Below are positions 26,399 to 44,272 of a stretch of DNA of 63,979 nucleotides, in pieces. Source of the stretch: Caldithrix abyssi (GTDB taxonomy: Bacteria; Calditrichota; Calditrichia; Calditrichales; Calditrichaceae). Within the stretch, counting starts at the first letter, position 1. Each line of letters starts with the position of its first letter. The stretch is from NCBI GenBank assembly GCA_011369465.1, contig DRQG01000118.1:1-63979 (forward strand). The letters are read 5' to 3'. A program made the translations under genes and the position numbers. The notes beneath the pieces were generated by a model that was given only the letters and a program-made list of their open reading frames with translations, was not told the DNA's origin and did no database searches.

Positions 26399-29300
26399 AT
26401 GTCTAAGCAATACAGACTGATTATAGGATTCCTTGCTGCTTTTATACAAATAGCTCTGGCCAATCAGGGAGGGAAGGATACGTTTGGCCACATGTGGACG
26501 GATAATAACGGTACGGGGCCCGATACGGTTCATTATGAATGGATTGATGCCAATGACGGTACCGTAATTTTCAGTGGGGCATCCGTTGATGACGATATAG
26601 CAGCTTTAAAACTTCCTTTCCCGTTTACCTTTTACGGACAGCAGAAGGATTCCTTATTTGTAAGCTCTAACGGTTTTATATCTTTTAAGACGCTTACCAG
26701 TAGTTATCCTGTAACCAGTCCCATTCCTTCTACCGGCGCGCCAGATTCATTAATTGCCGCATATTGGTACGATTTGCGTAACGGCACCGCGGAAGGCGGC
26801 GTGTTCAGTAAAGTTGTTGGCGAAGCACCGAACCGGAGATTTATCATAGAATGGGAGTACCACCAGGGCACTTCCGGTTTTCCGGATCCGATTAATATGG
26901 AAATTGTGCTTTACGAAACAAGTCATCTTATCAAATTGCAATACAGTTATGTGGATGCCGCTTATTCCGGAGGACGGGTTGGTATTGAGGCCGATGGAAC
27001 GGACGGTATTTCGTATAACAGCGCTTTGGTGGCCAATAACCTGGCCGTTCTGTTTCATAATAAAACCCTGGGCAGCGCCGTAGCTGCCATTTCACCGGTT
27101 AGCAGTACAACCAGCCAATATGAAACCTTCACCTATCGTTTGTACAATGTAAGCACCACTCCTGCTGGGCTGGGAAAAGTGGATTATCTGGCTATTCAAA
27201 ATCCCTTTGCAGATGATGCCAACCGCCCCACGGTTACGAGTATTAAAATTAACAGCGCGGACGCCTATATTAAAAATTCAGCGGACAAGCCCCTAAACCC
27301 GGGTTATGCCTCCTGGCAGTACGATGCCGTTAAGGATTCGCTGTTTATCCGTGTTTCTCATTTCAATATTATCGATTCAATGGTGGTTGTTTTCGGACAA
27401 ACCATGCCGGGAACGGCTTCGTCGGGCAATGCCTATCCCTCGCGCTACGACGCCAAACTTGATTCTTCCGCTTTGGCGGCGGCAACCTCAGCAGGCTGGA
27501 GCGTGGATGTAACCGGAAGCAGCCCCACCGTTACGCATTATACATTCCAACCGGCAAATGATACATCCATGACCGCCGGCGGCAGCTTGAGCTATACAAT
27601 TACCGCCCGTGATCAAAGCGGCACGGCGGTAGCCAACAGCGATTCGATTATACTGACAACACCGGGAAGTACCACCGCATGGTTTACAGAGGGAACACGG
27701 TTGGGTTTTGCCGGTAACAGCAGCGTTACGGTTACCGTGCACGATACAATCAAGGGGCAGTTTAGCATACGTGCCGAAAACAAAACCAACTCCGGAGTAA
27801 ACGGCGAAAGCGGTTTGATTACGGTCAATCCGGCGGCTCAGGATCATTTTACCATAAGCTCGGCCAGCACGGCCGATATTGAAGTGGGCAGTGAGCGCAT
27901 GCTTCAGGTAACCTTGTTTGATGTGTATAATAACGCCATTTCCGATAGTACGGTTACATTTACACGTCTCAGCGGAAACGGCGGTTTCTCAGGATCATCG
28001 GCTAAAAATGATACAACGGATATTTCCGGGCTGGCGCAGGCTTTGTACACGGCCAGCACTAAAATAAGCTACGGGAAAGATTCCGTGGAAGTGGCCTCCG
28101 GGGCGGTTAAAGATACTATTGTTATGACTTTGCAGGCCGGGCAGGTCAGCTCGTATGCTTTTAGTCCTTCCGGTAGTCAGAGCATTCAGGCCGGGGGCAG
28201 CGTTGCTTACACAATTACGGCAAAAGATCGCTACGGCAACGGCGTGGTAAACAGCCAAACCATTAATCTTTCCACACCGGGAAGTTCCACCGCCTGGTTT
28301 AACGGCAATATTACCAGCATTGCCTTTAGTAACGACAGCACTGTAACGGTAACGGTAAACGACACCACGACGGGTGAGTTTAGCGTGAAAGCGGCCAATG
28401 CTACGGACAGCGCCGTTAACGGACAAAGCGGAGCCATTACGGTAACTGCTGCCGCAGCGGATCATTTTACCGTAACCACAGCCAGCGAAGACTCATTGGT
28501 TGTGGGCGCGGAACGTTTGGTTCAGGTTTATCTTTATGATTTATACTCCAATCCCATTAACAACGCCACCGTTACTTTTACACGATTCCAGGGCAGCGGC
28601 TTATTTAGCGGCGGTACGAACAGCGCTAACGATCAAAGCGACGCCAATGGTCTGGCGCAAGCCAGTTACACGGCCAGTACGGATGTGAGTTACGTTACCG
28701 ACCGGATCGAAGTGGTTTCCGGCAGCATCCGCGATACGGTAAACATTCCGCTCAAAACCGGCGCCCTGGCCGAGCTGCGTATTCAGCGGGACGCCACTGC
28801 CAACGGACCCGCCGTGGGCGATACAACGATGACGGCAGACGAAAGCGCTTCCTTTATTGCACTTGGTTATGACTCATACGGAAACTTTAAAGGACGCATA
28901 GCCTCCAACTGGAGCGGCAGCGGGGTGGTGAGCGCGCTTTCTCCGGCCAATCCGACGGACAGCGTTTTTTTCGACGCCACCACAAAAGGATCGGGAACAC
29001 TGAAAGCCACCGCTCAGAGCGATGCCTCTCTAAGCGCCAGCACAGGACTCATTACCGTCACTGCCGGCACGGTTGCTTCTGTCCTTATCCGTACCTCTCC
29101 CAACGGTGAAGGAACGGAAATCGGGGATACAACGCTGACGGTCGGCCAAACGTTATATCTTTATTCCGCCGGTTACGATGCGGATAATAATTATAACCAG
29201 GATGTGGCGGTTGACTGGTACACAACCGGGACATTAACCGGTTTGGGCACGGCAACAAACACATCGGTAACAACGTTGCAGCCAACCACCACAGGCAGCG

Positions 29301-32300
29301 GTACGGTTGGTACTACCAGCGCCTATACGGATGACGTTACGGGAACAATAACAGCCCAGGCCGGTGCGCTGGCCTCCATCCGTATTCAGAGCGTTGCCGG
29401 AGACGGAGGCGCGGAACTGGTGGATTACACGGGCACAGCAGGCAGCAACGCTACGTTTTATGCCGAAGGTTATGACGCCAACGGTATTTATTTAGGCCCC
29501 GTAAATGTTACCTGGACAGTGGATGGGGATTCGATCGGCTACTTTAGCCAGAGCGGTTCGGTCAGCCAAAACACATTTAATTTTACGTTGGTTAATTCTT
29601 CTAAATTTTATATTACAGACGGCACATTCAGTGATTATTCCGGAGTGATTAAAACCCAGGCCGGCGCCGCAGCCGCATTGGCTCAGCAGCCTCTGAGCAG
29701 CGACACACTTTCGGCTATAGTGGGAAATCCGGTCAATGACTCGCTATGGGTAAAGGTTACCGACGCTTATGGCAACGCTGTACCCGGTGAAACCGTAACC
29801 TGGAGCACCAATACCGATGGCAGCCTGAGCCCATCGAGTAATCAAACAGATGCGTTAGGTGTGGCCCGCAGCAAATGGACGCTGCGCAGCACAGCCGGGT
29901 TGGATTCGGCGCAGGCCAGCGTGAGCGGACTTTCCTCTGCTGTATTCTTTGCCAATGCCCTTCCCGATTCTGCCGATTCGCTTCTGTATGTTTCCGGGGA
30001 CGGACAGACGGGAACCGTGAACAGCGACGCGGCCAACCCGTTACGGGTGCGGGTGGTCGATTATACCGGCGCCGCGGTTTCGGGCATCACCGTCACCTTT
30101 AGTATCAGCGGGACAAACGATTTACCGGAGGGAGGCAGCGATTACACAATCTACACGCCTTCTTCTTCAACGGACGCTAACGGTTACGCTCAAACTATGT
30201 TTAAATTTGGCAGTAAAGCAGGTACGTATATCGTACGCGCCTACAACAGCCAACTGATAAACAGTCCGGTTACGTTTACCCTTACGGCCGATCCGGCTGC
30301 TGCCGATAGCATATTGATTTACGCCGGAGACGGGCAAAGCGGCACGGTAAAAACACAATTATCCAATCCGGTAACCGTAAAAGTGGTAGATGCTTATGAA
30401 AACGGTATAGCCAACGCGGTTGTCCAATGGACGCCGGCCGACACTTCCGGTGCGGTAAGCGCGACAAATGATACCAGCCACACGGACGCCAACGGTTTTG
30501 CCAGCACAAACTGGACGCTTAGGCGGCAGGCCGGGAAGGACACGCTGACCGTGAGCAGCGGCAGTTTGACTTCGGTAATTTTTACCGCCACCGCCAATGC
30601 GGATGCCGCGGCAAATGTTCTGGTTTACAGCGGCAATAACGCTACCGTGGCCGCCGGCAGCGATCAGGTTATTGAAGCGCAGGTAACCGATCAATATGGC
30701 AATGCTGTGGAAGGCAGCGAAGTTACCTTTGATCCGGCCGACCGGGTTTCCATACGTACGGCCTTTACAGATGCTTCCGGCGTAGCCCGCAGCGTGTATA
30801 ACAGTCCGACAGATCAGGATTCTTCCGTTGCCCGGGGATTTGTGAGCGGTTTAAGCGATACGGCAAAATTCAAAATCTACGGTGTACGTTATATAGACAG
30901 CAGCCTCAATCCGGTTGCCACTCAGCCAGGCCAAACAGAGACGTTTTATGCGCAGGTAAATAATCCCGGTCCCAGCCAGCTTACGCTGGATCAGGCTAAC
31001 ACACTATTCAAATTTGACGACGGCACCACTACTTTCAGTACCGCCCTGGATTCTCCCGCGGTGTTGAACGCGAATCAGATTGTCACTTTAAAGTTTGCGC
31101 CGCAAACCGTGGACGCCGCTTTATCCGCCGGAAACTATACGCCGCAAATCGAATTTGGCGGAACGGGCGATCTCAGCGGTACGCTCAATACGCAGGAAAA
31201 CGGTTTGGCGGTAGAGCCTTTGCAAATTCTGTCTGTAGAGGTTTTGGATCCTGTAAGCAAACAGGTGGCCGCAGGCAAAACGGTTCAATCGATACGCATG
31301 CAGGTGCGCAATCGTTCTTTTTACAGCGTTACCGTGGACAGCGCGGCTTTGCAGTTTACGCCCGGGCAGGACGTCAGCCAAACCCCGCAGGCAGGCAACC
31401 CCACTACCATTGCCGCCGACCAGGTGGCCGATTTCTATTTTACGGCCGATGTTGCGGCCAACGCGGCCACAGGAACGGTTAGTGTGGACGGCTATATTGA
31501 CGGGAATATCAATGGTAAAACGGTCTATGATCATAACGCGGATCAAACCGATCAATTCACTATTGTCCAACCGACAACGCTCACTTACGAAAGTTTTTCT
31601 CCCGATACGGTTTCGGAACAGCAAAATACGGCGTTTACGATGGATGTAACCGCCAGCGGAACATTTGATATTATATTGAACACCGACAGCACGCGTCTGG
31701 TTTTCGGAAGCGATTCCTTTTTGCTGGACGGCCCGCAAACGCTCTATACCGGTGTTACGACCACGCTTTCTTTTGCGGCAAAAAATCTAACCATTCCCGC
31801 GGGACGATATAATGGTTTACTTTACATTTATGGGGAAGAAAATGGTCAAACAAAACAGGACACCCTGGATACCGGTACTAAATCGGACACATTGACCGTG
31901 CAGACGCCGGCCGTTCTGGTTATCGACTCTTTGTTGGCGGCAGCCGATACGGTAAGCCAAAACAGCGATACACTGGTGAATGTTTATATCAGCAATACGG
32001 GTGAAGCCACTCTGGAACTTACCTCTCTGACCGTTTCGCCATACGGAACCCCGCAAAGCATCACACCGGCTTTACCTGTTATGATCGGGGGAGCTTCGCA
32101 GCAGGTATTGAGCGCCCGGGTCCATATTCCGTCTGATGCCACAACAGGCAATACTACCCTTGATGCTACTGCACAGGGAACGGATGTAAACAGCGGTGAT
32201 GCGCTATCCGATAACGCAGCCGATCAACCGGATAGCTGGTACACAGCCGGGAAACCACTGGCCTCGGTGGACTCTATCCGCTCAACAGAGACCATTGTTA

Positions 32301-35300
32301 CGCCGGGACAAACCAATATACCGGTTAATATTTATCTGGCCAACAGCGGCGAAACACCAATATCGGTTACTTCGGTTAGCCTCATTCCCACCATTGGTTT
32401 ATATACGGAGTCTCCGGCAGCCTATCCCTTTGAGCTTAAAGGCAATTCGCAAACCATGGTCACACATTATCTTGATGTGTTAAATAACAGCGCAACCGGT
32501 AAAGATACCCTTTATGCGAAAGTGGAATATACCAATAATTATTCCGGATCGGACAGCACCTTCGTTAGCACCGCTTATCTGGCCTGGAAAATCAATGTTG
32601 CCGGTGGATCGGTTAAAATTATCTCCGTCAATACGGATTACGAAAAAGTATCGCATGGTCAGGACAGCGCCATTGTGGATGTGCGTTTGAAAAATGAAAC
32701 AGCAAATGATGTAACTTTAGACAGTTTAAAACTGATCTTTGCCAACGGCCAGGATAACTACCTGCAACAATTATCCTCAGGAACGCCCTTAGGCGTATTA
32801 GCCGGAAACGACGAAAACACCTATCGCTTTTATGTATCTGTGCTGAACAACGCTCAAACCGGTCAGGACAGCATGCACGCCCGGTTGATCAGCATCGATT
32901 CGGATGGCGACACCACTTTAACGGAAGACCAAACCATTAACGACCGCTGGCTGGTTCAGCAAAGGCAGCAGATTACCGTGGACAGCGTGCGTATCGATCC
33001 GGCGATGGCATCCACCGGACAAAGCGGTCTTTTGGGTTCTGTGTATATCTCCAATGCCGCCGGTACGTACCGGGCCGACGCTCAAATTGATTCGGTAAAA
33101 CTGAAATTAAAGATCGGAGCTGCCGATTACAGCGGGGATTTTGATATTTCTTTGCAAAGCAGCCCTTCTTTGGGCAGCGTACTCAAAGCCGGCCAAAGTA
33201 TCCGCTATAACTTTGATCTGACGGTACACACAGATGCGGGTTCGGCTACCTATCAGGCCGTACCGGAAGTAAAAGGGCACGACGTTAACGATAATCGCGA
33301 TACGACAGTCACGACAACGGCCAGCGGTAGTTCACTCACCGTGCAGCAGGCGGCCGGATTAGTGGTAAACAGTGTATGGGTGGTTCCGGACACATTGAGC
33401 CAGGGGCAGACACATGGCCGTGTAATGGTTGATTTTTCCAATCCGGGAGAGGCCGCGGCTGTGGTCAACAGCGCCCTCTTGTCTTTTTCGGAACCAACAA
33501 TCGATTTTGAGCCGCTTTTAATCAACAAAACAACCCCGTTTTCGCTGTCCGGCGGTTTAAGAGATACACTTATTTTTTCCATTAATGTAAATACCACATC
33601 CTTTACCGGTACGGTACAGGTTGACGCTACTTTGGATGGCGAGGATGCTAATTCCGCGGCTGCTTTAAGCGCTTCTTCCGCCAGCCCCGCTTCATTTGTT
33701 ATCGAAACTCCGGCTGATGTGAAGTGGGTTTCTACAACACCGTCTTCTTCCAAAGGAGATACTACAGAGCAATTTTATGTAACCGTATCCAATAGCGGGC
33801 AGGCAAGAGTAGATCTGGATGAAAGCAAAACGGTACTTAAAATTAAATCCAATGATTTTACCTCAACTTTGTACACGATCAATCTGCACGCTGCCAGCCC
33901 AAAAAGCATTGCCGGTGATAATCAGCAAACCGTGCTGCGTTTTGAAGATACCTATCTGACCGGTATGTCTGCCAATGACTATCGCTATGTTCTGGAATTG
34001 TACGGTTCATCCAACGGCGACCAATCCTATCAAAACACTTTAAATGCCGGTATTTTGGCGTATGCTGTGGATGTCTCGATCACACAGGTAACGGTTACGC
34101 CGGATGAGGTTGTAGAAGGCTATGTAGGCGTTCAATCATCGATGTACGTGTCGAACAGCGAAGCTCCCAAAACCATTGATGAATCCGGAACCACCCTTAT
34201 TTTTAAAGATAAACTCGGTAATATTCGTACGGTCAACAATTTAACCAGAACCGATACACTCACTATCCTCAAAAAAGATATAACCAGCGAATTGACGTTT
34301 ACCTTTGATATTCCGGAAGGTTTCCCGATTGATACAACGTATGTTTACGGACAAATCAGTTTGGAAAACGGAACTTTAATTAAGGAATCATCGCAGCCGG
34401 GGGCATTTGTGGTTAATTCCGCCGGGAATCCGGTCTATATCAGCGGCAGTTTCAGCCCGGATTCGGTAATCCATAACCAGACTGTTTCCTTCACTATGGG
34501 ATTCGCCAATACCGGTACGGCCGATCTTGTTCTTAATCAGGATTCAACCTATATCAATATCATCGGTTCCGGAATGACGCCCATCAATATGAGCGGCGGG
34601 TTTACACTTCATGGCAAAGACCGGGATACCGGTGTATTGGATACCACCTACATATCGTTTGTCAGTACAAAAATTAACGAGAATGTCGCTTATGACGCCT
34701 ATGATGTTTTATGGCATTTGAACGGACAAACCCCCACCGGCAATGTGGATAACTGGGAAGATACTGATCCGGGTGCTTTAAGTGTTATTCCGCAGGCCGA
34801 TCTGGTTTTTGCCAATTTGGTGATCGACTCGGCTGTTGTGCGGGCCGGGCAGGAGGATGTATCGGTAAAATATCAAATAAAAAATAATGGAGCCTCACCG
34901 GCGGTAATAACCGGATTCAATTTCAATTTTTATAATCTGGATCAAAGCAAAGACGTGAGCGGTGAATGGGCACTGAATAATTCCACCCTGCTTGCCGATA
35001 CCATTCAATCCGGTGTAACGCGGATTTATCCGTTCCGCTTTAATGTATCGCAACAGGCCACAACCGGCCGTGTTATCCCCACGCCGGCGGTACGATATTT
35101 TGATGTTCTTTTGCCGGACGCTCCCATGATTTCCAATACCGCCCTCGCCAAAGATACGGTTACGGTGATCAATCCGGCCAATATCCGAATAGATTCACTG
35201 ATTGCCGAAATTCCCAACCCGCAAAACAATTATGTGAATGTGGGACAGCCGTTTGATTTGCGGATTGTGGTTTCCAACACCGGCGCGGATACCATCCAAA

Positions 35301-38300
35301 GCGCCGAAATCTGGCTGCGTGAAAACAATCTGCATGTGGCTACACGTCAACTGAATAAAATTGCGCCTAACAGCACAATGGAAACCCTTGTTCAGAACCG
35401 CACCCTGTCTGTAACCGGGCAAACGGTATTCAAAGCGGAAATTCATTCGGCGACGGATTTGACGAATAAGGGTGTAACGCCGTTGCAGCCGCTGGATAAT
35501 TCGGAAATCCTGCTCGTCCAAACGCCGGTTAATCTCCGTCTCAGTTCTTCTATCGTCGAACCGCAAGGCGCTGCGGATTCGGTGGTTTCTCTGGGACAGG
35601 AATTCGTAATTCGCAGTGAAGTGGAAAATTCCGGTCAGGCCTCCTTCGGGCCGGGTTCGCTAACGCTGGTTGCCGCAGATTATAGCGGCAAGTTTACACC
35701 GGTACAACCCTTTAGCGGAACGCAAACCATATCCCAAAGCAAGCCCTTTGCGGAATGGAGACTCCGCGCAGACGCTTTAACCACCGGACAGCTGTTCGAT
35801 CAATTGCGCATTCTGCTCTCTCCGGTTCCGGTCGATTCCAACACCATGCAGCCTCCGGTTAGCAGCCTTCTGGATACCGTTTCCGTAAAAGTGACTGAAG
35901 CGGCTGATATCAGCGCCGATATTTCCGTTACCGATCCGCCCGGCGCCCGCGATTTAATCTTATCATCGGGACAAACCTTTATTGTACAGGCGATTTTTCA
36001 TTTCAACAGCTCAGTGGATGCTGCCAACCGTTTGGCCAGCATCCGATTGCCCGACGGGTATGCGGTGAGCGATAGTTCGGTTATCGGTTTAAAGCCGGCC
36101 GATACGGATACCGTTTTATGGAATGTTGTTGCGCCGGAGAACCCTTCGGGAAGTGTGGATTCTATTTTTGTACTTGTAAGCGCCGTGGATAAGAACAGTG
36201 GAATCGAATATCAAAAGAGCAGTTCCAAACTGGGGCTTACCGTACAAAAAAGAGCTCAATTGGATATGAATTTAAAGATTGTCAAAGATACCGGCTCCCA
36301 GGATAATACCATGTCTGAAGGTCAGGAGTTTACTTTAGAAACAAAAATAAATCAAAGCGAAGGGACAGCGCCCGTACAGGGTGGCGGTCGATTGATACTT
36401 ACGCTGGACAACGGTCTTGAATTAACGGACGGGGAGACAGCGGTTAAAACATTTTCTGACATTTCCGAAACGGTAAGCTGGCGTTTGCGCGCCGGATCGG
36501 TTTCTTTTAAAGCCGCATCCGCACCGGCCGGCGTCAATGCCCCTGTTCCGGCCTCCGCCGTTAGCGGTGTGGCTAAAGCAGACGCCAAACCGGCTGTTGA
36601 GGATCGCTTTGCTCTGCTCATGGCCGCCGCCGGTGAAAACGGACGTTTAATAACCGTACAGATAGACAGTATTCCTGTGGATGTAAATACAAACAAAGAG
36701 GCTTTTATTGCCAATCCCCAAAAAACCGATACGGTATTTGTGGAAAACGCCGCTCAAATCACCGATCTGAAAACAACGCTGGAAAAGGATACGGTTTCAA
36801 CCGGTCAAACGTTCAGCTATGGTGTGAATACGGATTTCTCGGGTAAATTGGTGAATGCGGTGGCTACGGTTTCTCTGCCTCCGGGATTCGGTTCGCCTGC
36901 GGATACGGTTTTTGCTCTGGATTCTCAGGGGAACGGCGTTAAACGTCTTACCGTCCCGCTATCTTACAACGGAAGTGAAAAAGTTCCGCTCAAAATAACC
37001 GTGGCCGGAGAAGATTTTTACAGCGGCCAGGTGGTTATTGGCAGTAAAACCGACACGCTGGTTATCGAGCGCAAGGCAGAGCTGGCCTTAAAGCTGGTGC
37101 AGATTACGCCTTTATCGGTTGCCAACTCCGGCTTCGCTTCCTGGGGACAGGAAATACAGGTGATGATGAAACCGGTATATGCCACCACATCCGGTACCCT
37201 TTCCAATGCCGCAATAACGGGGCAGGGCAGCGTTACACTGAATTCTGAAATACTGGATAAGGGATTTGAAATTATCGGCGCCGCGGAACAAGCATTCAGC
37301 GCGCTTGATCAGACGTTGGCTTTCAGACTAAGAGCCCCTAAAGACGTGGATTTTACCATCAATCTGAATTTTCATTTTAAACAGTTGCCTTTGGACGAAA
37401 ATGACGGGCTGCCCGCACTGGTTGCCCCCGATTCCGGAATGGTAAACATCCCCTTACGCGTGCGGCAGAAAACGGTAGAGGTGATCATCCGGCAGGATCT
37501 GGTGACCGATACCTCTTTCACGGATGTAAGCGGTACCAAACGCCTTCTGGCCTTTGATGTTTCCAACAAAGAATACGACGATCCGCTTAATGTGGACGGA
37601 TTGGTGCTTTCTTTCTATGAAAACGGCGGGCAGGACGGAACGGAAGCGGTTGCGCTTGACAAGTTCGCCGTGGCTAATATTTTTAAATCGATTCGTATAG
37701 TGGATGTGAACGAATTGGAAAGAATCGAAAAAGCCTCTTCGCCGGCGGGTACGGCAGAGTACGTGAATTTACCGATTGACGAGAATATTGAAGTGCCATT
37801 GCAAATACCTTTTACTCAAACGTCCGTTCATAACGCCGGAGAGGTGAAAACCTATGTGGTTTTGGGAGAATTCCGCGGCGATGCGGTTAACCGCAGTTTT
37901 TGGGCGCAGTTGAGTAACGTTTGGACCTGGGATGTTGCCGATTCCATTCTATTGCAAATCGTAGATGAAGAAGGCGAGAAAATCCAGGACAGCGAAATGC
38001 TGGTTTCCAAAAAACTATCCCTGCAAACCCAGGCTCCTGAAAATGATTTCTTTAACTATCCCAACCCATTCGGAAGGCAGTACAAACAAACGAGTATTCA
38101 GTTCCAATTACGCAATCCATCGGATGTTGAGTTCCGGATATTCACACTGCTTGGCGAACTTGTAAAAACCTGGCAGTTCAGCGGGTTGTCTCCCGGAGTG
38201 TATTCCAACCTGATCCGCTGGGATGGTACAAACGACCGCGGCAAACGGGTCTTAAACGGCGTTTATATCGGTATTATCGATATAAAACCGAGCAACGGAC

Positions 38301-38344
38301 AACCGGCGCAGCGGTACACCACAAAAATGGCATATATAAAATAA
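26399..38344 (+). CDS. giant secreted multi-Ig repeat surface protein with T9SS/FlgD-type C-terminus
   Basis: 3,981 residues in one uninterrupted frame; AAGGTG precedes the ATG. Order: signal peptide (residues ~1-21); a nidogen-like beta domain (~25-240, PFPFTFYGQQKDSLFVSSNGFISF pattern); a duplicated two-domain Ig module (380-~790); three related ~100-residue domains (~790-1,090); four invasin-type (Big_1-like) Ig domains with VTDAYGNAVPGETVTW-like cores (~1,095-1,495); some 17 divergent CARDB-like units (~1,608-3,697); a pre-terminal domain; and a C-terminal sorting-like Ig domain with YPNPF at 3887-3891. Serine/threonine/aspartate-rich, almost Cys-free. It is likely exported and displayed as an adhesin or long surface fibre (inference). 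The PorV-like gene follows 13 bp later. Confidence 0.9.
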   Translation: MSKQYRLIIGFLAAFIQIALANQGGKDTFGHMWTDNNGTGPDTVHYEWIDANDGTVIFSGASVDDDIAALKLPFPFTFYGQQKDSLFVSSNGFISFKTLTSSYPVTSPIPSTGAPDSLIAAYWYDLRNGTAEGGVFSKVVGEAPNRRFIIEWEYHQGTSGFPDPINMEIVLYETSHLIKLQYSYVDAAYSGGRVGIEADGTDGISYNSALVANNLAVLFHNKTLGSAVAAISPVSSTTSQYETFTYRLYNVSTTPAGLGKVDYLAIQNPFADDANRPTVTSIKINSADAYIKNSADKPLNPGYASWQYDAVKDSLFIRVSHFNIIDSMVVVFGQTMPGTASSGNAYPSRYDAKLDSSALAAATSAGWSVDVTGSSPTVTHYTFQPANDTSMTAGGSLSYTITARDQSGTAVANSDSIILTTPGSTTAWFTEGTRLGFAGNSSVTVTVHDTIKGQFSIRAENKTNSGVNGESGLITVNPAAQDHFTISSASTADIEVGSERMLQVTLFDVYNNAISDSTVTFTRLSGNGGFSGSSAKNDTTDISGLAQALYTASTKISYGKDSVEVASGAVKDTIVMTLQAGQVSSYAFSPSGSQSIQAGGSVAYTITAKDRYGNGVVNSQTINLSTPGSSTAWFNGNITSIAFSNDSTVTVTVNDTTTGEFSVKAANATDSAVNGQSGAITVTAAAADHFTVTTASEDSLVVGAERLVQVYLYDLYSNPINNATVTFTRFQGSGLFSGGTNSANDQSDANGLAQASYTASTDVSYVTDRIEVVSGSIRDTVNIPLKTGALAELRIQRDATANGPAVGDTTMTADESASFIALGYDSYGNFKGRIASNWSGSGVVSALSPANPTDSVFFDATTKGSGTLKATAQSDASLSASTGLITVTAGTVASVLIRTSPNGEGTEIGDTTLTVGQTLYLYSAGYDADNNYNQDVAVDWYTTGTLTGLGTATNTSVTTLQPTTTGSGTVGTTSAYTDDVTGTITAQAGALASIRIQSVAGDGGAELVDYTGTAGSNATFYAEGYDANGIYLGPVNVTWTVDGDSIGYFSQSGSVSQNTFNFTLVNSSKFYITDGTFSDYSGVIKTQAGAAAALAQQPLSSDTLSAIVGNPVNDSLWVKVTDAYGNAVPGETVTWSTNTDGSLSPSSNQTDALGVARSKWTLRSTAGLDSAQASVSGLSSAVFFANALPDSADSLLYVSGDGQTGTVNSDAANPLRVRVVDYTGAAVSGITVTFSISGTNDLPEGGSDYTIYTPSSSTDANGYAQTMFKFGSKAGTYIVRAYNSQLINSPVTFTLTADPAAADSILIYAGDGQSGTVKTQLSNPVTVKVVDAYENGIANAVVQWTPADTSGAVSATNDTSHTDANGFASTNWTLRRQAGKDTLTVSSGSLTSVIFTATANADAAANVLVYSGNNATVAAGSDQVIEAQVTDQYGNAVEGSEVTFDPADRVSIRTAFTDASGVARSVYNSPTDQDSSVARGFVSGLSDTAKFKIYGVRYIDSSLNPVATQPGQTETFYAQVNNPGPSQLTLDQANTLFKFDDGTTTFSTALDSPAVLNANQIVTLKFAPQTVDAALSAGNYTPQIEFGGTGDLSGTLNTQENGLAVEPLQILSVEVLDPVSKQVAAGKTVQSIRMQVRNRSFYSVTVDSAALQFTPGQDVSQTPQAGNPTTIAADQVADFYFTADVAANAATGTVSVDGYIDGNINGKTVYDHNADQTDQFTIVQPTTLTYESFSPDTVSEQQNTAFTMDVTASGTFDIILNTDSTRLVFGSDSFLLDGPQTLYTGVTTTLSFAAKNLTIPAGRYNGLLYIYGEENGQTKQDTLDTGTKSDTLTVQTPAVLVIDSLLAAADTVSQNSDTLVNVYISNTGEATLELTSLTVSPYGTPQSITPALPVMIGGASQQVLSARVHIPSDATTGNTTLDATAQGTDVNSGDALSDNAADQPDSWYTAGKPLASVDSIRSTETIVTPGQTNIPVNIYLANSGETPISVTSVSLIPTIGLYTESPAAYPFELKGNSQTMVTHYLDVLNNSATGKDTLYAKVEYTNNYSGSDSTFVSTAYLAWKINVAGGSVKIISVNTDYEKVSHGQDSAIVDVRLKNETANDVTLDSLKLIFANGQDNYLQQLSSGTPLGVLAGNDENTYRFYVSVLNNAQTGQDSMHARLISIDSDGDTTLTEDQTINDRWLVQQRQQITVDSVRIDPAMASTGQSGLLGSVYISNAAGTYRADAQIDSVKLKLKIGAADYSGDFDISLQSSPSLGSVLKAGQSIRYNFDLTVHTDAGSATYQAVPEVKGHDVNDNRDTTVTTTASGSSLTVQQAAGLVVNSVWVVPDTLSQGQTHGRVMVDFSNPGEAAAVVNSALLSFSEPTIDFEPLLINKTTPFSLSGGLRDTLIFSINVNTTSFTGTVQVDATLDGEDANSAAALSASSASPASFVIETPADVKWVSTTPSSSKGDTTEQFYVTVSNSGQARVDLDESKTVLKIKSNDFTSTLYTINLHAASPKSIAGDNQQTVLRFEDTYLTGMSANDYRYVLELYGSSNGDQSYQNTLNAGILAYAVDVSITQVTVTPDEVVEGYVGVQSSMYVSNSEAPKTIDESGTTLIFKDKLGNIRTVNNLTRTDTLTILKKDITSELTFTFDIPEGFPIDTTYVYGQISLENGTLIKESSQPGAFVVNSAGNPVYISGSFSPDSVIHNQTVSFTMGFANTGTADLVLNQDSTYINIIGSGMTPINMSGGFTLHGKDRDTGVLDTTYISFVSTKINENVAYDAYDVLWHLNGQTPTGNVDNWEDTDPGALSVIPQADLVFANLVIDSAVVRAGQEDVSVKYQIKNNGASPAVITGFNFNFYNLDQSKDVSGEWALNNSTLLADTIQSGVTRIYPFRFNVSQQATTGRVIPTPAVRYFDVLLPDAPMISNTALAKDTVTVINPANIRIDSLIAEIPNPQNNYVNVGQPFDLRIVVSNTGADTIQSAEIWLRENNLHVATRQLNKIAPNSTMETLVQNRTLSVTGQTVFKAEIHSATDLTNKGVTPLQPLDNSEILLVQTPVNLRLSSSIVEPQGAADSVVSLGQEFVIRSEVENSGQASFGPGSLTLVAADYSGKFTPVQPFSGTQTISQSKPFAEWRLRADALTTGQLFDQLRILLSPVPVDSNTMQPPVSSLLDTVSVKVTEAADISADISVTDPPGARDLILSSGQTFIVQAIFHFNSSVDAANRLASIRLPDGYAVSDSSVIGLKPADTDTVLWNVVAPENPSGSVDSIFVLVSAVDKNSGIEYQKSSSKLGLTVQKRAQLDMNLKIVKDTGSQDNTMSEGQEFTLETKINQSEGTAPVQGGGRLILTLDNGLELTDGETAVKTFSDISETVSWRLRAGSVSFKAASAPAGVNAPVPASAVSGVAKADAKPAVEDRFALLMAAAGENGRLITVQIDSIPVDVNTNKEAFIANPQKTDTVFVENAAQITDLKTTLEKDTVSTGQTFSYGVNTDFSGKLVNAVATVSLPPGFGSPADTVFALDSQGNGVKRLTVPLSYNGSEKVPLKITVAGEDFYSGQVVIGSKTDTLVIERKAELALKLVQITPLSVANSGFASWGQEIQVMMKPVYATTSGTLSNAAITGQGSVTLNSEILDKGFEIIGAAEQAFSALDQTLAFRLRAPKDVDFTINLNFHFKQLPLDENDGLPALVAPDSGMVNIPLRVRQKTVEVIIRQDLVTDTSFTDVSGTKRLLAFDVSNKEYDDPLNVDGLVLSFYENGGQDGTEAVALDKFAVANIFKSIRIVDVNELERIEKASSPAGTAEYVNLPIDENIEVPLQIPFTQTSVHNAGEVKTYVVLGEFRGDAVNRSFWAQLSNVWTWDVADSILLQIVDEEGEKIQDSEMLVSKKLSLQTQAPENDFFNYPNPFGRQYKQTSIQFQLRNPSDVEFRIFTLLGELVKTWQFSGLSPGVYSNLIRWDGTNDRGKRVLNGVYIGIIDIKPSNGQPAQRYTTKMAYIK
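27536..28768 (+). repeat. tandem duplication of a two-domain Ig module inside the giant gene
   Basis: Unit 1 (27536-28150) and unit 2 (28151-~28768) encode the same pair of domains 205 residues apart. Corresponding landmarks: HYTFQPAND/SYAFSPSGS, TTPGSTTAWF/STPGSSTAWF, DHFTISSAS/DHFTVTTAS, DSTVTFTRLSG/NATVTFTRFQG, and GLAQALYTAS/GLAQASYTAS. The similarity is obvious at protein level, much stronger than among the later units, pointing to a fairly recent in-frame duplication of 615 bp. Confidence 0.85.
31220..37490 (+). repeat. array of about 17 divergent CARDB-like units in the giant gene
   Basis: From residue 1608 to about 3697 the protein is built from ~110-140-residue units. Each begins with a strand such as LTYESFSPDTVSEQQ, LVIDSLLAAADTVSQ, ITVDSVRIDPAMAST, LVVNSVWVVPDTLSQ or VYISGSFSPDSVIHN, then a V-x-V-x-N-x-G core (for example VNVYISNTGEATLEL). 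The pattern matches CARDB/Ig-like adhesion domains. One late unit carries a Pro/Ala-rich insert (nt ~36520-36600). The units are too divergent for visible DNA repeats. Confidence 0.7.
38048..38341 (+). other. C-terminal FlgD-Ig/T9SS sorting-like domain of the giant protein
   Basis: Residues 3884-3981: YPNPF near the start, then FRIFTLLGELVKTW, PGVYSNLIRWDGTNDRGK and a GVYIGII strand before the C-terminus. This is the arrangement of FlgD-Ig-like and type A T9SS C-terminal domains, by which FCB-group proteins are recognised for type IX export. The C-terminal signal is followed directly by the stop codon. Confidence 0.75.
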
Positions 38345-38357
38345 GCGAGATAGTGTT

Positions 38358-40265
38358 ATGAAGCTAACGACAAAAATTGTTAGTGCCTGGATCGTATTAA
38401 CTCTTACAGCACTGCCTCTTGCCGCGCAGGATGAAGGACAGGCGGGAACGGAAAGCCTGTTTAAGGATGGTTTTGGCGCACGGGCCAGCGGACTGGGGCA
38501 GGCTTACACCGCTTTGGCCAATGACCCTTCCGCTGTATTCTGGAATCCGGCCGGATTGGAATATGTCTATCAGCAAAGCGTTATGCTCTATCACATGAGC
38601 CTGTTTGAAGGCACTAATTACGATTTTATCGCCTATGCCATGCCCACATTAAAGCTGGGTACATTTGCGATAGGTCTCGGACGGATTGGCACGGGCGATA
38701 TAACCGAACGTACCGCATCCCGAATTGCCTTAGGTACGTTTACATGGGAAACCTATCAGGCTTATTTATCCTACGCCAAAAAACTGCCACTCGATATCAC
38801 AGTGGGTGCCTCGGTAAAAGTGTTACGGCGCGCCTGGAGCGGACTCTCCACGGAGGGCGCCCTGATCGATCATGGGGTGGGGATGGATTTTGGATTGATG
38901 TGGCGGCCGACGTTGTTCGAAGGTAATTTGCTGCAAAATTGGTCTTTAGGCTTAAATATTCGTAACTTATTTGCACCTCAGCTTAACGAAGGAGTGGATA
39001 TAGACGCCTTACCCATTTCCGTTCGTTTCGGTTTAATGAAGCAAATTCCCTTTTCCGGTTTGGGGAATCGTCTAAGCCTGTTGTTCGATCTGGATTATTC
39101 CCAGGAAAGAGATATGCTGTTCCATTTCGGAACGGAATATCGGTTTATGAATATGGGAATGGTTCGTGTGGGCTATGACGGTGTGGGTATGACCTTTGGA
39201 GCCGGTATCGAATATAAATTTATGCAGCTCGATTACGCCTACGCCAACAGCAGTTACGGCGACTACTTTTCGGCTGTGCACAGAATATCGTTGTCGTTCA
39301 ATTTCGGTTTAAACCGGGATGAATTATTTGAAATTGCCGAAGCGGAGCGTATTGCCGAAGAAGAGCGGCTGATCGCCGAAATGCGGGAACGCGACCGCCA
39401 GAAATTCATTGCCGAACATCTGGAAAAAGGCAATCAGTTCTTTGAACAGGGCGATATGTTTAACGCCATTGTGGAATACCAGCAGGTCATCGGGCAGGAC
39501 CCGTTCAATCAACGGGCCAACGCCATGTTGGATTCGGCCAATGTGCAGTTGAAAAAGCAATTCGAAAAACAGCAGGAACTGGCTGTGCAAAATGCGCTGG
39601 ACAAGGATCGCGCCCAGCGTGATCAAAAGTTCATTGACGAGCATTTCCAGAAAGGTCGCCTGCTGCTGGATAAAAAGCAGTACACCGAGGCTTTAATCGA
39701 ATTTAATATGGCCCTGGAACGGGATCCGGAAAATGAAACCATCAAAGCCGGCATTGCCACCACCAAACGGCGTATTCGTGAAGAAACCACCCGGTTGATT
39801 AACAAAGGCAGGCAGGAATTCCAGAAAGGCAATTATGCGGAAGCCCTTCGCCTGCTGGCAGACGCCCGCCTGCTGGGCGGTGATGACCAGAGGATTCAGA
39901 ACGAAATTGAACCTCTGGTTAAACGCATTAAGCTGCAGGAAAAAATACAAAAAGGTTTAGGTTTGTATGAAATTGGCGAATATGATAAGGCGTTGAAGTT
40001 ATTTGAAGAAGCATTGACGATAGATCCCAATGACGAGTTGGTCAAACAGTACTACGAGCGGTCCAAAGTTGAATCGACCGGTAAAGAAGAGCAAATGGAT
40101 GCGGAGACGGAACGCCAGTATCTGAAAGGCGTCGATTATTTTGTGAAAGGCGATTATCAGCAGGCCATCTCCATCTGGGAAGAAATCGTTAAGAAATATC
40201 CCTACAATAAAAAGGTGCTCAAAGCTCTAAAGGGTGCGCGCGAACGTCTGAAAAAAATGGAATAA
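38358..40265 (+). CDS. PorV/PorQ-like outer-membrane barrel fused to TPR domain
   Basis: 635 residues. A signal peptide (cleaved near LPLAAQ) is followed by a ~290-residue FadL-family barrel of the PorV/PorQ/UPF0164 type, recognised from FGARASGLGQAYTALANDPS and AVFWNPAGL, and closing near FSAVHRISLSFNFG. A charged coiled-coil (~320-350, EAERIAEEERLIAEMRERDR) leads to four or five TPRs (~355-630, AEHLEKGNQFFEQGDMFNAI, EHFQKGRLLLDKKQYTEAL, GLYEIGEYDKALKLFEEAL, GVDYFVKGDYQQAISIWEEI). In Bacteroidota PorV shuttles T9SS cargo. Its place 13 bp after a gene with a T9SS-like terminus suggests the barrel serves that protein, with periplasmic TPRs as a docking arm (inference). Confidence 0.88.
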   Translation: MKLTTKIVSAWIVLTLTALPLAAQDEGQAGTESLFKDGFGARASGLGQAYTALANDPSAVFWNPAGLEYVYQQSVMLYHMSLFEGTNYDFIAYAMPTLKLGTFAIGLGRIGTGDITERTASRIALGTFTWETYQAYLSYAKKLPLDITVGASVKVLRRAWSGLSTEGALIDHGVGMDFGLMWRPTLFEGNLLQNWSLGLNIRNLFAPQLNEGVDIDALPISVRFGLMKQIPFSGLGNRLSLLFDLDYSQERDMLFHFGTEYRFMNMGMVRVGYDGVGMTFGAGIEYKFMQLDYAYANSSYGDYFSAVHRISLSFNFGLNRDELFEIAEAERIAEEERLIAEMRERDRQKFIAEHLEKGNQFFEQGDMFNAIVEYQQVIGQDPFNQRANAMLDSANVQLKKQFEKQQELAVQNALDKDRAQRDQKFIDEHFQKGRLLLDKKQYTEALIEFNMALERDPENETIKAGIATTKRRIREETTRLINKGRQEFQKGNYAEALRLLADARLLGGDDQRIQNEIEPLVKRIKLQEKIQKGLGLYEIGEYDKALKLFEEALTIDPNDELVKQYYERSKVESTGKEEQMDAETERQYLKGVDYFVKGDYQQAISIWEEIVKKYPYNKKVLKALKGARERLKKME

Positions 40266-40283: not shown

Positions 40284-43200
40284 ATGTTTAAAAATGTAAA
40301 AAAGGAAGAAATAACCATACCTGCGCAGATGAGCTATCTGACGCAGATCCGTGACTTTATCGAGCATATCGGTAAAAAATACAAATTTGACGATAAAACC
40401 GTTAACTCGTTTAAGCTGGTTGTGGACGAAGCATGCACCAATATCATCCGCCATGGTTACAGGGATATCAAAAACGGCGAAATTACCATCAAAGCCATTG
40501 TCCGCCGTCTCAGCCTTACCATCCTGATTATCGATCAGGGTAAAAGTTACGATCCCCGCCAGGCCAACACCCCCGATCTGGCTAAATATGTGAGCATCGG
40601 AAAAAAGGGCGGATTAGGCATATTGATGATGCGGAAACTGATGGACGATATTCAATATTCCATCACTGAGCGGGGTAATGAATTCCGTTTAACCAAATAT
40701 CGCGAAAAAGTACATGAGTCAAAACTCAGCCAGTGGTGGAATGAGCAAACTCTGCGTACCAAATATTCCATCTATGCCTCCATTCTGCTTACCATTATTC
40801 TGGCAGTCATTTTTCTGCCTCAGTATTATAATGTAATGAATGATGTACGGGAAAACATACTGAAAGCCAACGCCTCCAGCACCCGGACTCTGGCCAACGG
40901 CAGCGTAGACGACTTGCTGGATGATAACAACATATTATTATTTGAGAAAGCCCACGCCCTGCTTACCGGAGCTCCGGATATTATCTACGATGTTTATATC
41001 GTAGATACGTCCAACGCGGTGCTGGCCTGGGGGAATCCGGCTAAACAGGATGTGCCGGATGTCTTTCGGGTACCGGAATCTGCCTCACTGATAGATACGG
41101 TAGGAAATGTAGATATCTATTATTATTCTTTGAATGATACGCTGCCTGTGTACGATTTGACAGCCGAAGCTCTGCTGGCCGGTGAAACCGTATTGGGCCA
41201 TGTGCATCTGCTCATTACGCAGCAATCCATAGTCAAACAGGCAGAACAGCGAAAATTCCGCCTGATCATCAACATGTTGATTATCCTGATTATCGGTTAT
41301 GTGGCCATATTCTTCCTGATCCGAAAGATATTATCGCCCTTCCACAGTCTGGCCGACTGGGTGCGGCAGGTTGTAAAAGGACGTGTGGATCAGGACGAAA
41401 TCGATATCGATGCTTCGGACGAATTAGGTGAGATTGCCCAGGCTTTTAATGAGATGACCCATAAATTCCGGGAAGCCCAGGTTAACCTGATGGAGCAGCA
41501 AAAACTGCAAAAAGAATTGCAGGTGGCACAGGAAATCCAACAAATGCTGCTTCCCAGCGACTTCCCTAAGGTGGAAGGCTACGAAATCGCTTCCTATTAC
41601 GAAGCGGCCAAAGAAGTGGGCGGCGACCTGTTCGACTTTGTGGAAGTGGATGAAGATACCATCGGTATTTGCGTGGCAGACGTTTCCGGAAAGGGCGTAC
41701 CCGGCTCGCTTATTATGACCATGATCCGTACCGCTTTACGGCTGGAATCGCGTGGCAATAAAAATCCGGCTGATGTACTGGCCAAAGTAAACCGCTTTGT
41801 GGCCAACGATATGAAACGCGGCATGTTTGTAACTATGTTTTACGTTGTGCTCGATTCCCGCAACCGTATTATTCATTACGCCAGCGCCGGTCACAATCCG
41901 ATGATTCTGTATCGTGGTTCCTCCCGTCAAACCTACTATCTTAATCCTTCGGGTTTTCCTGTCGGTATCCAGTTGCCCGATATTACCCTGTTTGACCGGA
42001 AAATAGAAACCGATTCCATCCGGCTGCGCGAAGATGATATTCTGGTTTTATATACGGATGGCATCACCGAAGCAATGAATGCCAGTAGAGAATTGTACCG
42101 GGAAGAGCGTTTTTTGAGCGCCATTCGCAATAATTCGCATCTGGATGTGGGCGAATTTATCAAAGCCATTCAAAGCGATATCAAAACGTTCACCGGCGGG
42201 GCGCCGCAAAATGACGATATCACTTTTGTGGCTATTAAAGAAAAAATGATGCAGAGCGATGTTATTTACAACATACAACGCGATCTGCAAAACTTAATCA
42301 GCGGTGGGATGAAGGTAAAAGAGGCCCTGGAAAAACTGCGTGTTTCACAATATCATTATTATAAATATAAGGAAATCATAGATAAAGAGGGATTGGCCGG
42401 ACTAAAAACGGTTCTGGAAAAACAGGATTATATTGAGCGTAAACATCTTTCCATAGAAGTTAAAACAAAAATTTACGATATCATCCGCAAACATCCCGAA
42501 TACGGCGCGGCCCGTATTGTAAAAGAGCTGGATACGGAAGAGTACGGGCATATTAAACTGGATGAAAACCGTTTGTACAAAGAGCTGGTAAAAATGCGCC
42601 TGAATACCCGCGAACGGCGCGAACTGTTTGTTCGTAAAGGCGACAAGCGTCGTTTGAAGCAGCCGGGAACGCCATTGTTAACGCTGGATGGAAAAGTTAT
42701 ACTCGATTTTGAATCTTCGGAGAAAGAAATTGCCAAACGCAAAGGCGGTACACCAACCGAAACGCCGACTCCTGTGCCCACGCCAAAACCGGAAGAACCC
42801 AAAAAACCGTTTGTACGGGAAATAAATGTAAAGCGCGAAGAACCTCAAAAGGGCGAAAAACCGGCCGGCGAAGAGCCTGCGGCTGTTATGATTCATAAAC
42901 CGGCCAAACATTTTACTCCGGTAAAACCTCCTGAGGAGAAAAAAGAAGAAGAAAAAATCCCGGAAAAAGCGCCGACTAAACGGATAAGCAGGGAAGATTT
43001 ATTGGCACAGGTTAGCATAAACATCGATGCCGAAGCGTTGGAACAATTTTTTAAAGAAGCTAAAAATGACCTGATTACCGCCGAAAAACTTATACAGGCT
43101 GCCGCTAACAATAAAAAACTACAATCGTCTATTAAAGAGCTGCATATGCAATTACGAAAAATCGTCCGGCATCCGACCCTGCGTTCTTTACCTGATGTAA

Positions 43201-43523
43201 AGCGGGTTTTTGAACGAGTTCAACATATTGTTTACTATATCGACAGCAGCCTGGAAAAACTGGATGAAGAATTTATTCGTAAGAATGTTAAAGAATTATT
43301 GTTTTCTGTTAAAAAAGACAATAAATTTGACGATTATGAAAAATATTACGAAACGATTAATACGCTGGGTATAATTCAGAAACGTTTTATGGATGCCGTT
43401 AAAAGCGCGCAATCCCATACGGATGAAATCTCAAAAGCCCGGAAGAAATTAGCCGATAAAAAAATTATTACAAGCAAGCCCGTATTAAACATGCTGAATG
43501 ATGATCCTGAAACAAAATCGTAA
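40284..43523 (+). CDS. membrane HATPase-HAMP-PP2C (SpoIIE-type) phosphatase with C-terminal HTH-like region
   Basis: 1,079 residues. Order: RsbW-type HATPase (1-140; N-box Glu49/Asn53, Asp84-x-Gly86, GGLG at 109-112); TM1 ~160-182; extracytoplasmic sensor; TM2 ~325-345; HAMP (~345-400); SpoIIE-type PP2C (~410-650) with metal ligands in GGD (446-448), ADVSGKG (Asp466), YTDGITEA and NDDIT; two helix-turn-helix-like segments (~677-707 and 733-782); a Pro/Lys-rich linker (~810-900); and a helical C-terminal domain (~903-1,070). SpoIIE phosphatases reactivate STAS antagonists, here presumably the next gene. Kinase-like and phosphatase domains in one sensor are notable. No anti-sigma target or sigma factor is in the window. 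Confidence 0.9.
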   Translation: MFKNVKKEEITIPAQMSYLTQIRDFIEHIGKKYKFDDKTVNSFKLVVDEACTNIIRHGYRDIKNGEITIKAIVRRLSLTILIIDQGKSYDPRQANTPDLAKYVSIGKKGGLGILMMRKLMDDIQYSITERGNEFRLTKYREKVHESKLSQWWNEQTLRTKYSIYASILLTIILAVIFLPQYYNVMNDVRENILKANASSTRTLANGSVDDLLDDNNILLFEKAHALLTGAPDIIYDVYIVDTSNAVLAWGNPAKQDVPDVFRVPESASLIDTVGNVDIYYYSLNDTLPVYDLTAEALLAGETVLGHVHLLITQQSIVKQAEQRKFRLIINMLIILIIGYVAIFFLIRKILSPFHSLADWVRQVVKGRVDQDEIDIDASDELGEIAQAFNEMTHKFREAQVNLMEQQKLQKELQVAQEIQQMLLPSDFPKVEGYEIASYYEAAKEVGGDLFDFVEVDEDTIGICVADVSGKGVPGSLIMTMIRTALRLESRGNKNPADVLAKVNRFVANDMKRGMFVTMFYVVLDSRNRIIHYASAGHNPMILYRGSSRQTYYLNPSGFPVGIQLPDITLFDRKIETDSIRLREDDILVLYTDGITEAMNASRELYREERFLSAIRNNSHLDVGEFIKAIQSDIKTFTGGAPQNDDITFVAIKEKMMQSDVIYNIQRDLQNLISGGMKVKEALEKLRVSQYHYYKYKEIIDKEGLAGLKTVLEKQDYIERKHLSIEVKTKIYDIIRKHPEYGAARIVKELDTEEYGHIKLDENRLYKELVKMRLNTRERRELFVRKGDKRRLKQPGTPLLTLDGKVILDFESSEKEIAKRKGGTPTETPTPVPTPKPEEPKKPFVREINVKREEPQKGEKPAGEEPAAVMIHKPAKHFTPVKPPEEKKEEEKIPEKAPTKRISREDLLAQVSINIDAEALEQFFKEAKNDLITAEKLIQAAANNKKLQSSIKELHMQLRKIVRHPTLRSLPDVKRVFERVQHIVYYIDSSLEKLDEEFIRKNVKELLFSVKKDNKFDDYEKYYETINTLGIIQKRFMDAVKSAQSHTDEISKARKKLADKKIITSKPVLNMLNDDPETKS

Positions 43524-43570
43524 TGTTCTGTTTCAGATGATTTAGTTGAAATCCTGTAAAGGAGGATTGG

Positions 43571-44272
43571 ATGGAAGGAATTCAAGTCTCAACCGAAATT
43601 GCTGGCAGCCGAAATCATATTTCCGTTATTAAAGTGGGCGGGTATATCGATACCACCACATCTTCAGAGCTGGAGCGCGCTTTGGACTCGCTCCTCAAAC
43701 AAGGGCGTTTCTTCATTATCGTAGATCTGGGTAATGTTGACTATATCAGCAGCGCCGGTTGGGGTATTTTTATAAGCGAGATCAAGTCGATCCGCGAGAA
43801 CGGCGGCGATCTTAAATTGGTGCGTATGGTGCCGGACGTATATGAAATATTTGAACTGCTGGAATTCCACCATATTCTGGATGTTTACGATACAATCGAT
43901 GAAGCCATCAATAAATTCGAAATGCTTGAGGCAGCTGGAAAACCGGTAGCCAAAGAAATTACCCTGCCTAAAGAAGAAAAAGCGGAACCGGCTCCGGCCG
44001 AAGCGCCTGTGGAACCGGCCGTTGCTACCACAGCGCCCTTAGGTCAAAAAGAAGAAGCAGCGCAGCCTCAGGTCAATCCGGCGGATTCTCCTTTACCCGA
44101 GAAAATTAAGATGATTGTAAAAGAAAATCCCCATTACGGCGCGTATAAAATAAAGAAGGAACTAAATACGGCTAAATATGGTTTTACTAAGGTCGGTTGG
44201 TTCGCGGTGCGTGCAGAACTTAATAAACTGAATTTAAAAAGCCGCAATCAACGTCTGGAATTTGCAGGATAG
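43571..44272 (+). CDS. STAS anti-anti-sigma-like protein with C-terminal HTH-like module
   Basis: 233 residues, with an excellent AAAGGAGG ribosome site six bases before the ATG. The STAS domain (~5-115) keeps VIKVGGYIDTTTSSELERAL and VDLGNVDYISSAGWG; by alignment with SpoIIAA the phosphorylatable serine would be Ser61. A Pro/Ala/Glu linker (~125-175) leads to residues 178-233 (KMIVKENPHYGAYKIKKEL and a basic end), homologous to residues ~733-782 of the phosphatase upstream: about 20 identities in 50 gapless positions. This module resembles the HPxYGxxRIxxEL helix-turn-helix of IS3/IS481 transposases. It is the likely substrate of that phosphatase; output might be DNA binding rather than anti-sigma sequestration (inference). 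Confidence 0.88.
   Translation: MEGIQVSTEIAGSRNHISVIKVGGYIDTTTSSELERALDSLLKQGRFFIIVDLGNVDYISSAGWGIFISEIKSIRENGGDLKLVRMVPDVYEIFELLEFHHILDVYDTIDEAINKFEMLEAAGKPVAKEITLPKEEKAEPAPAEAPVEPAVATTAPLGQKEEAAQPQVNPADSPLPEKIKMIVKENPHYGAYKIKKELNTAKYGFTKVGWFAVRAELNKLNLKSRNQRLEFAG

Follow-up and report, generated by a model that had tools for sequence, protein, structure and literature searches.

A transposase-type helix-turn-helix module shared by a predicted membrane-bound switch enzyme and two STAS proteins in Caldithrix abyssi and its relatives

Domain make-up of the enzyme and STAS1 genes

The window, that is, the whole stretch of 63,979 nucleotides of Caldithrix abyssi DNA that was analyzed and a single contig belonging to Calditrichota, carries at positions 40284..43523 of the forward strand a gene for a 1079-residue protein that we annotate, from its domain matches and its orthologues across Calditrichota and the candidate division KSB1, as a membrane-bound two-way switch enzyme (hereafter the enzyme). 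The gene for a 233-residue STAS protein, STAS1, lies on the same strand at 43571..44272, and both are intact open reading frames at the positions given in an earlier note on this DNA. The enzyme comprises, in order, an RsbW-type kinase domain, a sensor region with two predicted transmembrane helices, a HAMP domain, a SpoIIE-type PP2C phosphatase domain and two transposase-type helix-turn-helix units (HTH1 and HTH2), followed by a PGTP motif, a low-complexity linker and a helical C-terminus. The kinase domain (HATPase_c_2, RsbW/SpoIIAB-type, residues 12-138, 40317..40697, Pfam E 1.4e-26) has RsbW as its nearest solved structure (6m36, E 5.9e-17), and the PP2C domain (residues 457-652, 41652..42239, Pfam E 2.6e-51) has solved relatives in 3es2 and 3ke6. 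Pfam detected no REC domain in the enzyme, and a HAMP domain is present instead (residues 344-396, 41313..41471, Pfam E 1.1e-10). Because kinase and PP2C domains reside in one polypeptide, what the earlier note had called a phosphatase is implied to be a two-way enzyme.

HTH1 (residues 668-716, 42285..42431) is of the HTH_23/HTH_28/HTH_Tnp_1 type according to Pfam, the IS481 model and AlphaFold2 (AF2); as many as 16 of 19 members match these Pfam families, with a best E of 2.9e-7, and its AF2 pLDDT is about 93-96. HTH2, a module with the signature HPxYG (residues 720-784, 42441..42635), is assigned by IS481 and IS3 models, hhalign and AF2. Downstream of it lies the near-invariant motif K-x-PGTPLLTLDG (residues 790-810, 42651..42713), which is present only in the enzyme, varies less than the HTHs and matched no known family; its residues K792, G795, T796, P797, D802 and G803 are invariant in 60 sequences.

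The constant upstream neighbor of the enzyme gene (38358..40265, forward strand) encodes, according to Pfam, an outer membrane protein that is UPF0164-like and has TPR repeats; of the 68 locus records with space for this neighbor, some genomes being counted twice, 66 have it close to the enzyme gene. Upstream of both genes, positions 26399-38344 encode a repetitive protein of surface type, 3981 residues long and containing Big_1 domains. A search of the window against Rfam returned no match.

STAS1 consists of a STAS domain (residues 14-112, 43610..43906, Pfam E 1e-19), an acidic linker predicted to be disordered, and an HTH2 module with the basic charge typical of these STAS proteins (mean +8; residues 174-232, 44090..44266), as judged by Pfam and AF2. 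The predicted phospho-acceptor, Ser61, aligns with Ser58 of SpoIIAA (1th8/1tid), and S60 and S61 are both invariant in 58 sequences. The module is modeled by AF2 at pLDDT 93-96; its match to HTH_21 has E 0.008 for the whole of STAS1, and 11 of 21 STAS modules match the same family (best 7e-6, in a relative). STAS1 was found in 40 of 40 relatives, its gene usually directly following that of the enzyme (exceptions are loci L095, L098, L099 and L112) and lying outside any polysaccharide locus.

Similarity of the modules and relation to transposases

BLASTP aligned enzyme residues 729-783 with STAS1 residues 178-232 without gaps at 22 identities in 55 positions (E 2e-8). The earlier note had paired residues 733-782 with 183-232 at about 20 identities in 50; the similarity is real and stronger than was claimed, while the residue numbers were shifted by about four and, taken literally, give only 2 identities in 50. 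Over 50 residues without gaps, the two proteins reach a best score of 93, a value that none of 300 shuffles of STAS1 attained (all ≤43), which disposes of the explanation by composition that the earlier note had itself named among the ways in which its claim could fail.

The NCBIfam IS481 transposase model matches enzyme residues 668-791 (E 4.6e-8, model positions 5-123 of 284), the sole IS481 match in the source genome, and among homologous enzyme tails 60 of 60 match IS481 (best E 1.2e-18) and 54 of 60 match IS3, bearing out the proposal that the first HTH is transposase-like. The proposed order of an HTH followed by an HPxYG-HTH with no DDE domain likewise holds, as the IS481 alignment stops at position 123-124 of 284 and no DDE domain match was found in the enzyme. 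L204, an IS481 transposase encoded in another genome of this family, aligns across both HTHs (model positions 7-133 of 164, E 3.3e-11), and hhalign of the enzyme HTH2 against the STAS modules gives Prob 98.9 and E 2.8e-17. Where profiles were built locally, their E-values hold relative to small sets. When a profile was made from STAS1 modules only, all 60 enzyme tails scored between 31.6 and 55.4 bits with it and transposases of the same lineage no more than 8.9 bits, so that the enzyme and STAS modules are the nearest kin of one another; in a tree of these short modules, those of the enzyme are split from those of the STAS proteins with support 0.875.

The HTH fold is supported in both modules by AF2 helices and by Pfam HTH families. 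In the structure check that had been proposed, AF2 gave both HPxYG modules matching helix lengths and spacing, with helices starting at 71, 89, 108 and 123 in the model of the enzyme tail and at 175, 191, 210 and 225 in STAS1. A structure search of the PDB with the enzyme tail returned no significant fold match, the best being weak matches to the TnsB and MuA transposases (E 0.3 to 1.6; TnsB 0.3), and a search of viral models gave nothing significant (best 0.6), probably because two loosely joined domains were queried as one. A sequence search of the PDB with the module returned Sleeping Beauty at E 0.69 and nothing else.

Judged from these sequence comparisons, the module shares its ancestry with the N-terminal part of IS481/IS3 transposases, and as the simplest account we infer one acquisition from a transposase of the IS481/IS3 type followed by spread inside the pathway. 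The resemblance of the enzyme tail to a transposase N-terminus could also be put down to a transposon that inserted recently or to an artefact of composition; we give this virtually no credence, since the module is kept with intact reading frames over two phylum-level groups and the BLAST and shuffling results above speak against chance.

Distribution of the module and the position of STAS2

A profile of the module has exactly three matches in the source genome, namely the enzyme, STAS1 and STAS2, a STAS protein of 286 residues encoded on contig 105. As the same genome has 11 SpoIIE domains and about 12 STAS matches, the module sets apart a single enzyme and a pair of STAS proteins. Its absence from 10 of the 11 SpoIIE phosphatases and from all but two STAS proteins agrees, within this genome, with the earlier statement that such a module is unusual for proteins of these families; that account had correctly recognized the enzyme and the neighboring STAS1 as carriers, and had missed STAS2, the link of STAS2 to polysaccharide export and the implication of the kinase domain.

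The genomes compared are mostly metagenome assemblies, and loci listed under G handles partly coincide with those of the named records, so that the following counts are not additive. The same set of up to three carriers, and no other architecture, was seen in 36 Calditrichota genomes. In 25 genomes of KSB1 and other relatives the three carriers were found again, together with two extra weak matches (L170:2130-3638 and L171:5146-6792); both are STAS proteins of greater length (503 and 549 aa) whose C-terminal module has diverged, and both are encoded between polysaccharide export genes. Searching 84,980 species genomes with the enzyme tail yielded 68 loci in Calditrichota, KSB1 and further metagenome-assembled genomes, the architecture of the enzyme being constant across loci.

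The STAS2 gene is directly followed by a Poly_export (Wza-like) gene in 36 of the 36 loci scored, and this in turn usually by a Wzc-like gene of about 770 residues. Outside the 36 stand L063 (genome G029), where STAS2 has another gene rather than an export gene directly downstream, L183 and L202, where the contig ends, L199, with a reverse-strand open reading frame, and L170 and L171, which hold the longer paralogue. The C-terminal end of STAS2 reads KR[YF]R[YF]YRS in both groups. STAS2 is presumed to belong to the enzyme by virtue of the shared module. Our results suggest that two related bacterial groups conserve a form, so far undescribed, of an on/off switch already known to control slime production.

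A conserved leader element, TGTAAnTGACnnGGCG[GA]AGC, precedes polysaccharide operons by about 30-50 nt, measured to the first gene, and lies upstream of STAS2 among others. Sites lie in the region L058:7107-7120 (C105:25106-25119 of the source genome), at C104:4351-4364 and at C137:16002-16015, as well as in most relatives, and the operons behind them begin with STAS2, Wza/Wzc, Gfo/Idh plus acetyltransferase, GMD or sugar transferase genes; at times the element lies beside integron-type integrases. It has no Rfam match, was sought in the window and is absent there, and in sequence it resembles the enterobacterial ops element, GGCGGTAGCGTG (PMC5995543). We rejected the idea that it is the operator of the STAS modules, given its likeness to ops and its presence ahead of unrelated polysaccharide operons. 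Alongside the canonical nusG (L286:951-1496), the source genome encodes on C64 a NusG paralogue of 166 residues (L285:1825-2325), a candidate RfaH/UpxY-like factor for the ops-like element. In addition, matches near the Rfam cut-off to the t44 RNA (rpsB leader) lie upstream of rpsB at L058:2471-2565 and L062:2429-2524.

Role of the module and comparison with known systems

Our computations establish the domain make-up, the IS481/IS3 homology, the conservation, the exclusive distribution and the link to the export operon. We infer enzyme activity, STAS2 as a substrate of the enzyme, docking and a polysaccharide output, and we put at about even odds the full proposal of a serine-phosphorylation switch for exopolysaccharide like that of SypE and SypA, with the module as an address tag tying the enzyme to its own substrates. 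In this proposal, the membrane protein would sense something in the periplasm, and the HAMP domain would relay the signal, shifting the balance between the N-terminal RsbW-type kinase and the PP2C phosphatase, and hence the phosphorylation of the conserved serine in STAS1 and STAS2. The module, most likely as an address tag, would dock or co-assemble the three proteins and so keep the switch separate from the remaining PP2C phosphatases (10) and STAS proteins (about 10) in the cell, and STAS2 would then act on polysaccharide export.

Mean net charge is +8 for the STAS modules, +5 for the enzyme HTH2, -1 for the enzyme HTH1 and -9.5 for the STAS domain; in most transposases of the lineage, HTH1 carries +5 to +10. 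The face of the recognition helix has W210 in 49 and F211 in 48 of 58 STAS sequences, and is polar and variable in the enzyme. We lean toward mutual binding or co-assembly over DNA binding, because the module is confined to the enzyme and its presumed substrates, the recognition helices differ and HTH1 has lost its basic charge. Two observations are against docking: a basic module on an acidic STAS domain is what is expected of a DNA binder, and docking alone gives no reason for the enzyme to retain its two HTHs in the order seen in transposases. It is conceivable, if rather doubtful, that the module is a working DNA-binding domain, with STAS1 and STAS2 as transcription factors whose activity would depend on the phosphorylated state of a serine, and with the membrane enzyme likewise in contact with DNA near polysaccharide genes. 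Homology to the DNA-binding N-terminus of IS481/IS3 transposases fits this reading, as do the strongly basic STAS modules with a nearly constant K or R at 207, 225 and 228 and the rank of TnsB and MuA, weak as these matches are, as the best PDB folds. However, with different recognition helices the enzyme and the STAS proteins would not both read the same site, basic charge is lost from the enzyme HTH1, and no operator private to the system was found, the ops-like element upstream of STAS2 being common to many polysaccharide operons and absent from the window. A sigma-free partner switch acting directly on DNA, in which STAS1 and STAS2 would be phosphorylation-controlled DNA-binding regulators under a membrane kinase/phosphatase with a two-HTH tail, appears slightly less probable still.

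Less likely again is the possibility that the module of all three proteins binds a common third partner, either a protein of the export machinery or an RNA, gathering the switch in one place. Such a partner would account for the shared module and the disordered linkers, for the W210/F211 hydrophobic patch of the STAS modules and for the fixed position of STAS2 before Wza/Wzc; yet no candidate partner was identified, and the conserved surfaces differ between the enzyme and STAS modules.

This would be a clear case of the DNA-binding part of a transposase recruited into signaling proteins, and the address tag may be what keeps 11 such phosphatases separate within one cell. In polysaccharide control, the downstream action of STAS proteins is an open question. 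In Vibrio fischeri, SypE sets the phosphorylation of SypA, a STAS protein encoded first in the syp polysaccharide locus, and unphosphorylated SypA promotes biofilm through a target that is unknown (PMC4517449, PMC10120452). Throughout the lineage described here, one STAS gene holds a fixed place before the leading gene for export, and a common domain links its product to the presumed enzyme, so that both target and specificity become testable.

The RsbW-type kinase domain beside the PP2C domain makes the whole resemble SypE-SypA with a shared module added. Both systems unite serine kinase and PP2C phosphatase in a single protein, have as target, here a presumed one, a STAS protein with a conserved serine (here Ser61, the predicted acceptor), and place a STAS gene first in a polysaccharide locus (here that of STAS2, in all loci scored, and not that of STAS1). 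In contrast, the center of SypE is a response-regulator domain where the present enzyme has a transmembrane sensor with HAMP, and SypA is a STAS domain alone (105 aa), whereas two STAS proteins occur here, each with a linker and a transposase-type module that is also found on the enzyme. The partner-switching systems RsbU/RsbV/RsbW and SpoIIE/SpoIIAA/SpoIIAB share the PP2C, STAS and HATPase kinase families and the acceptor serine, but in the system described here kinase and phosphatase are fused and HTH modules are added. With IS481/IS3 transposases, the enzyme shares HTH1 (HTH_23/28) followed by HTH2 (HTH_21, HPxYG), and it differs from them in the absence of a DDE domain and of a surrounding element and in the lost charge of HTH1, while the STAS proteins retain HTH2 only.
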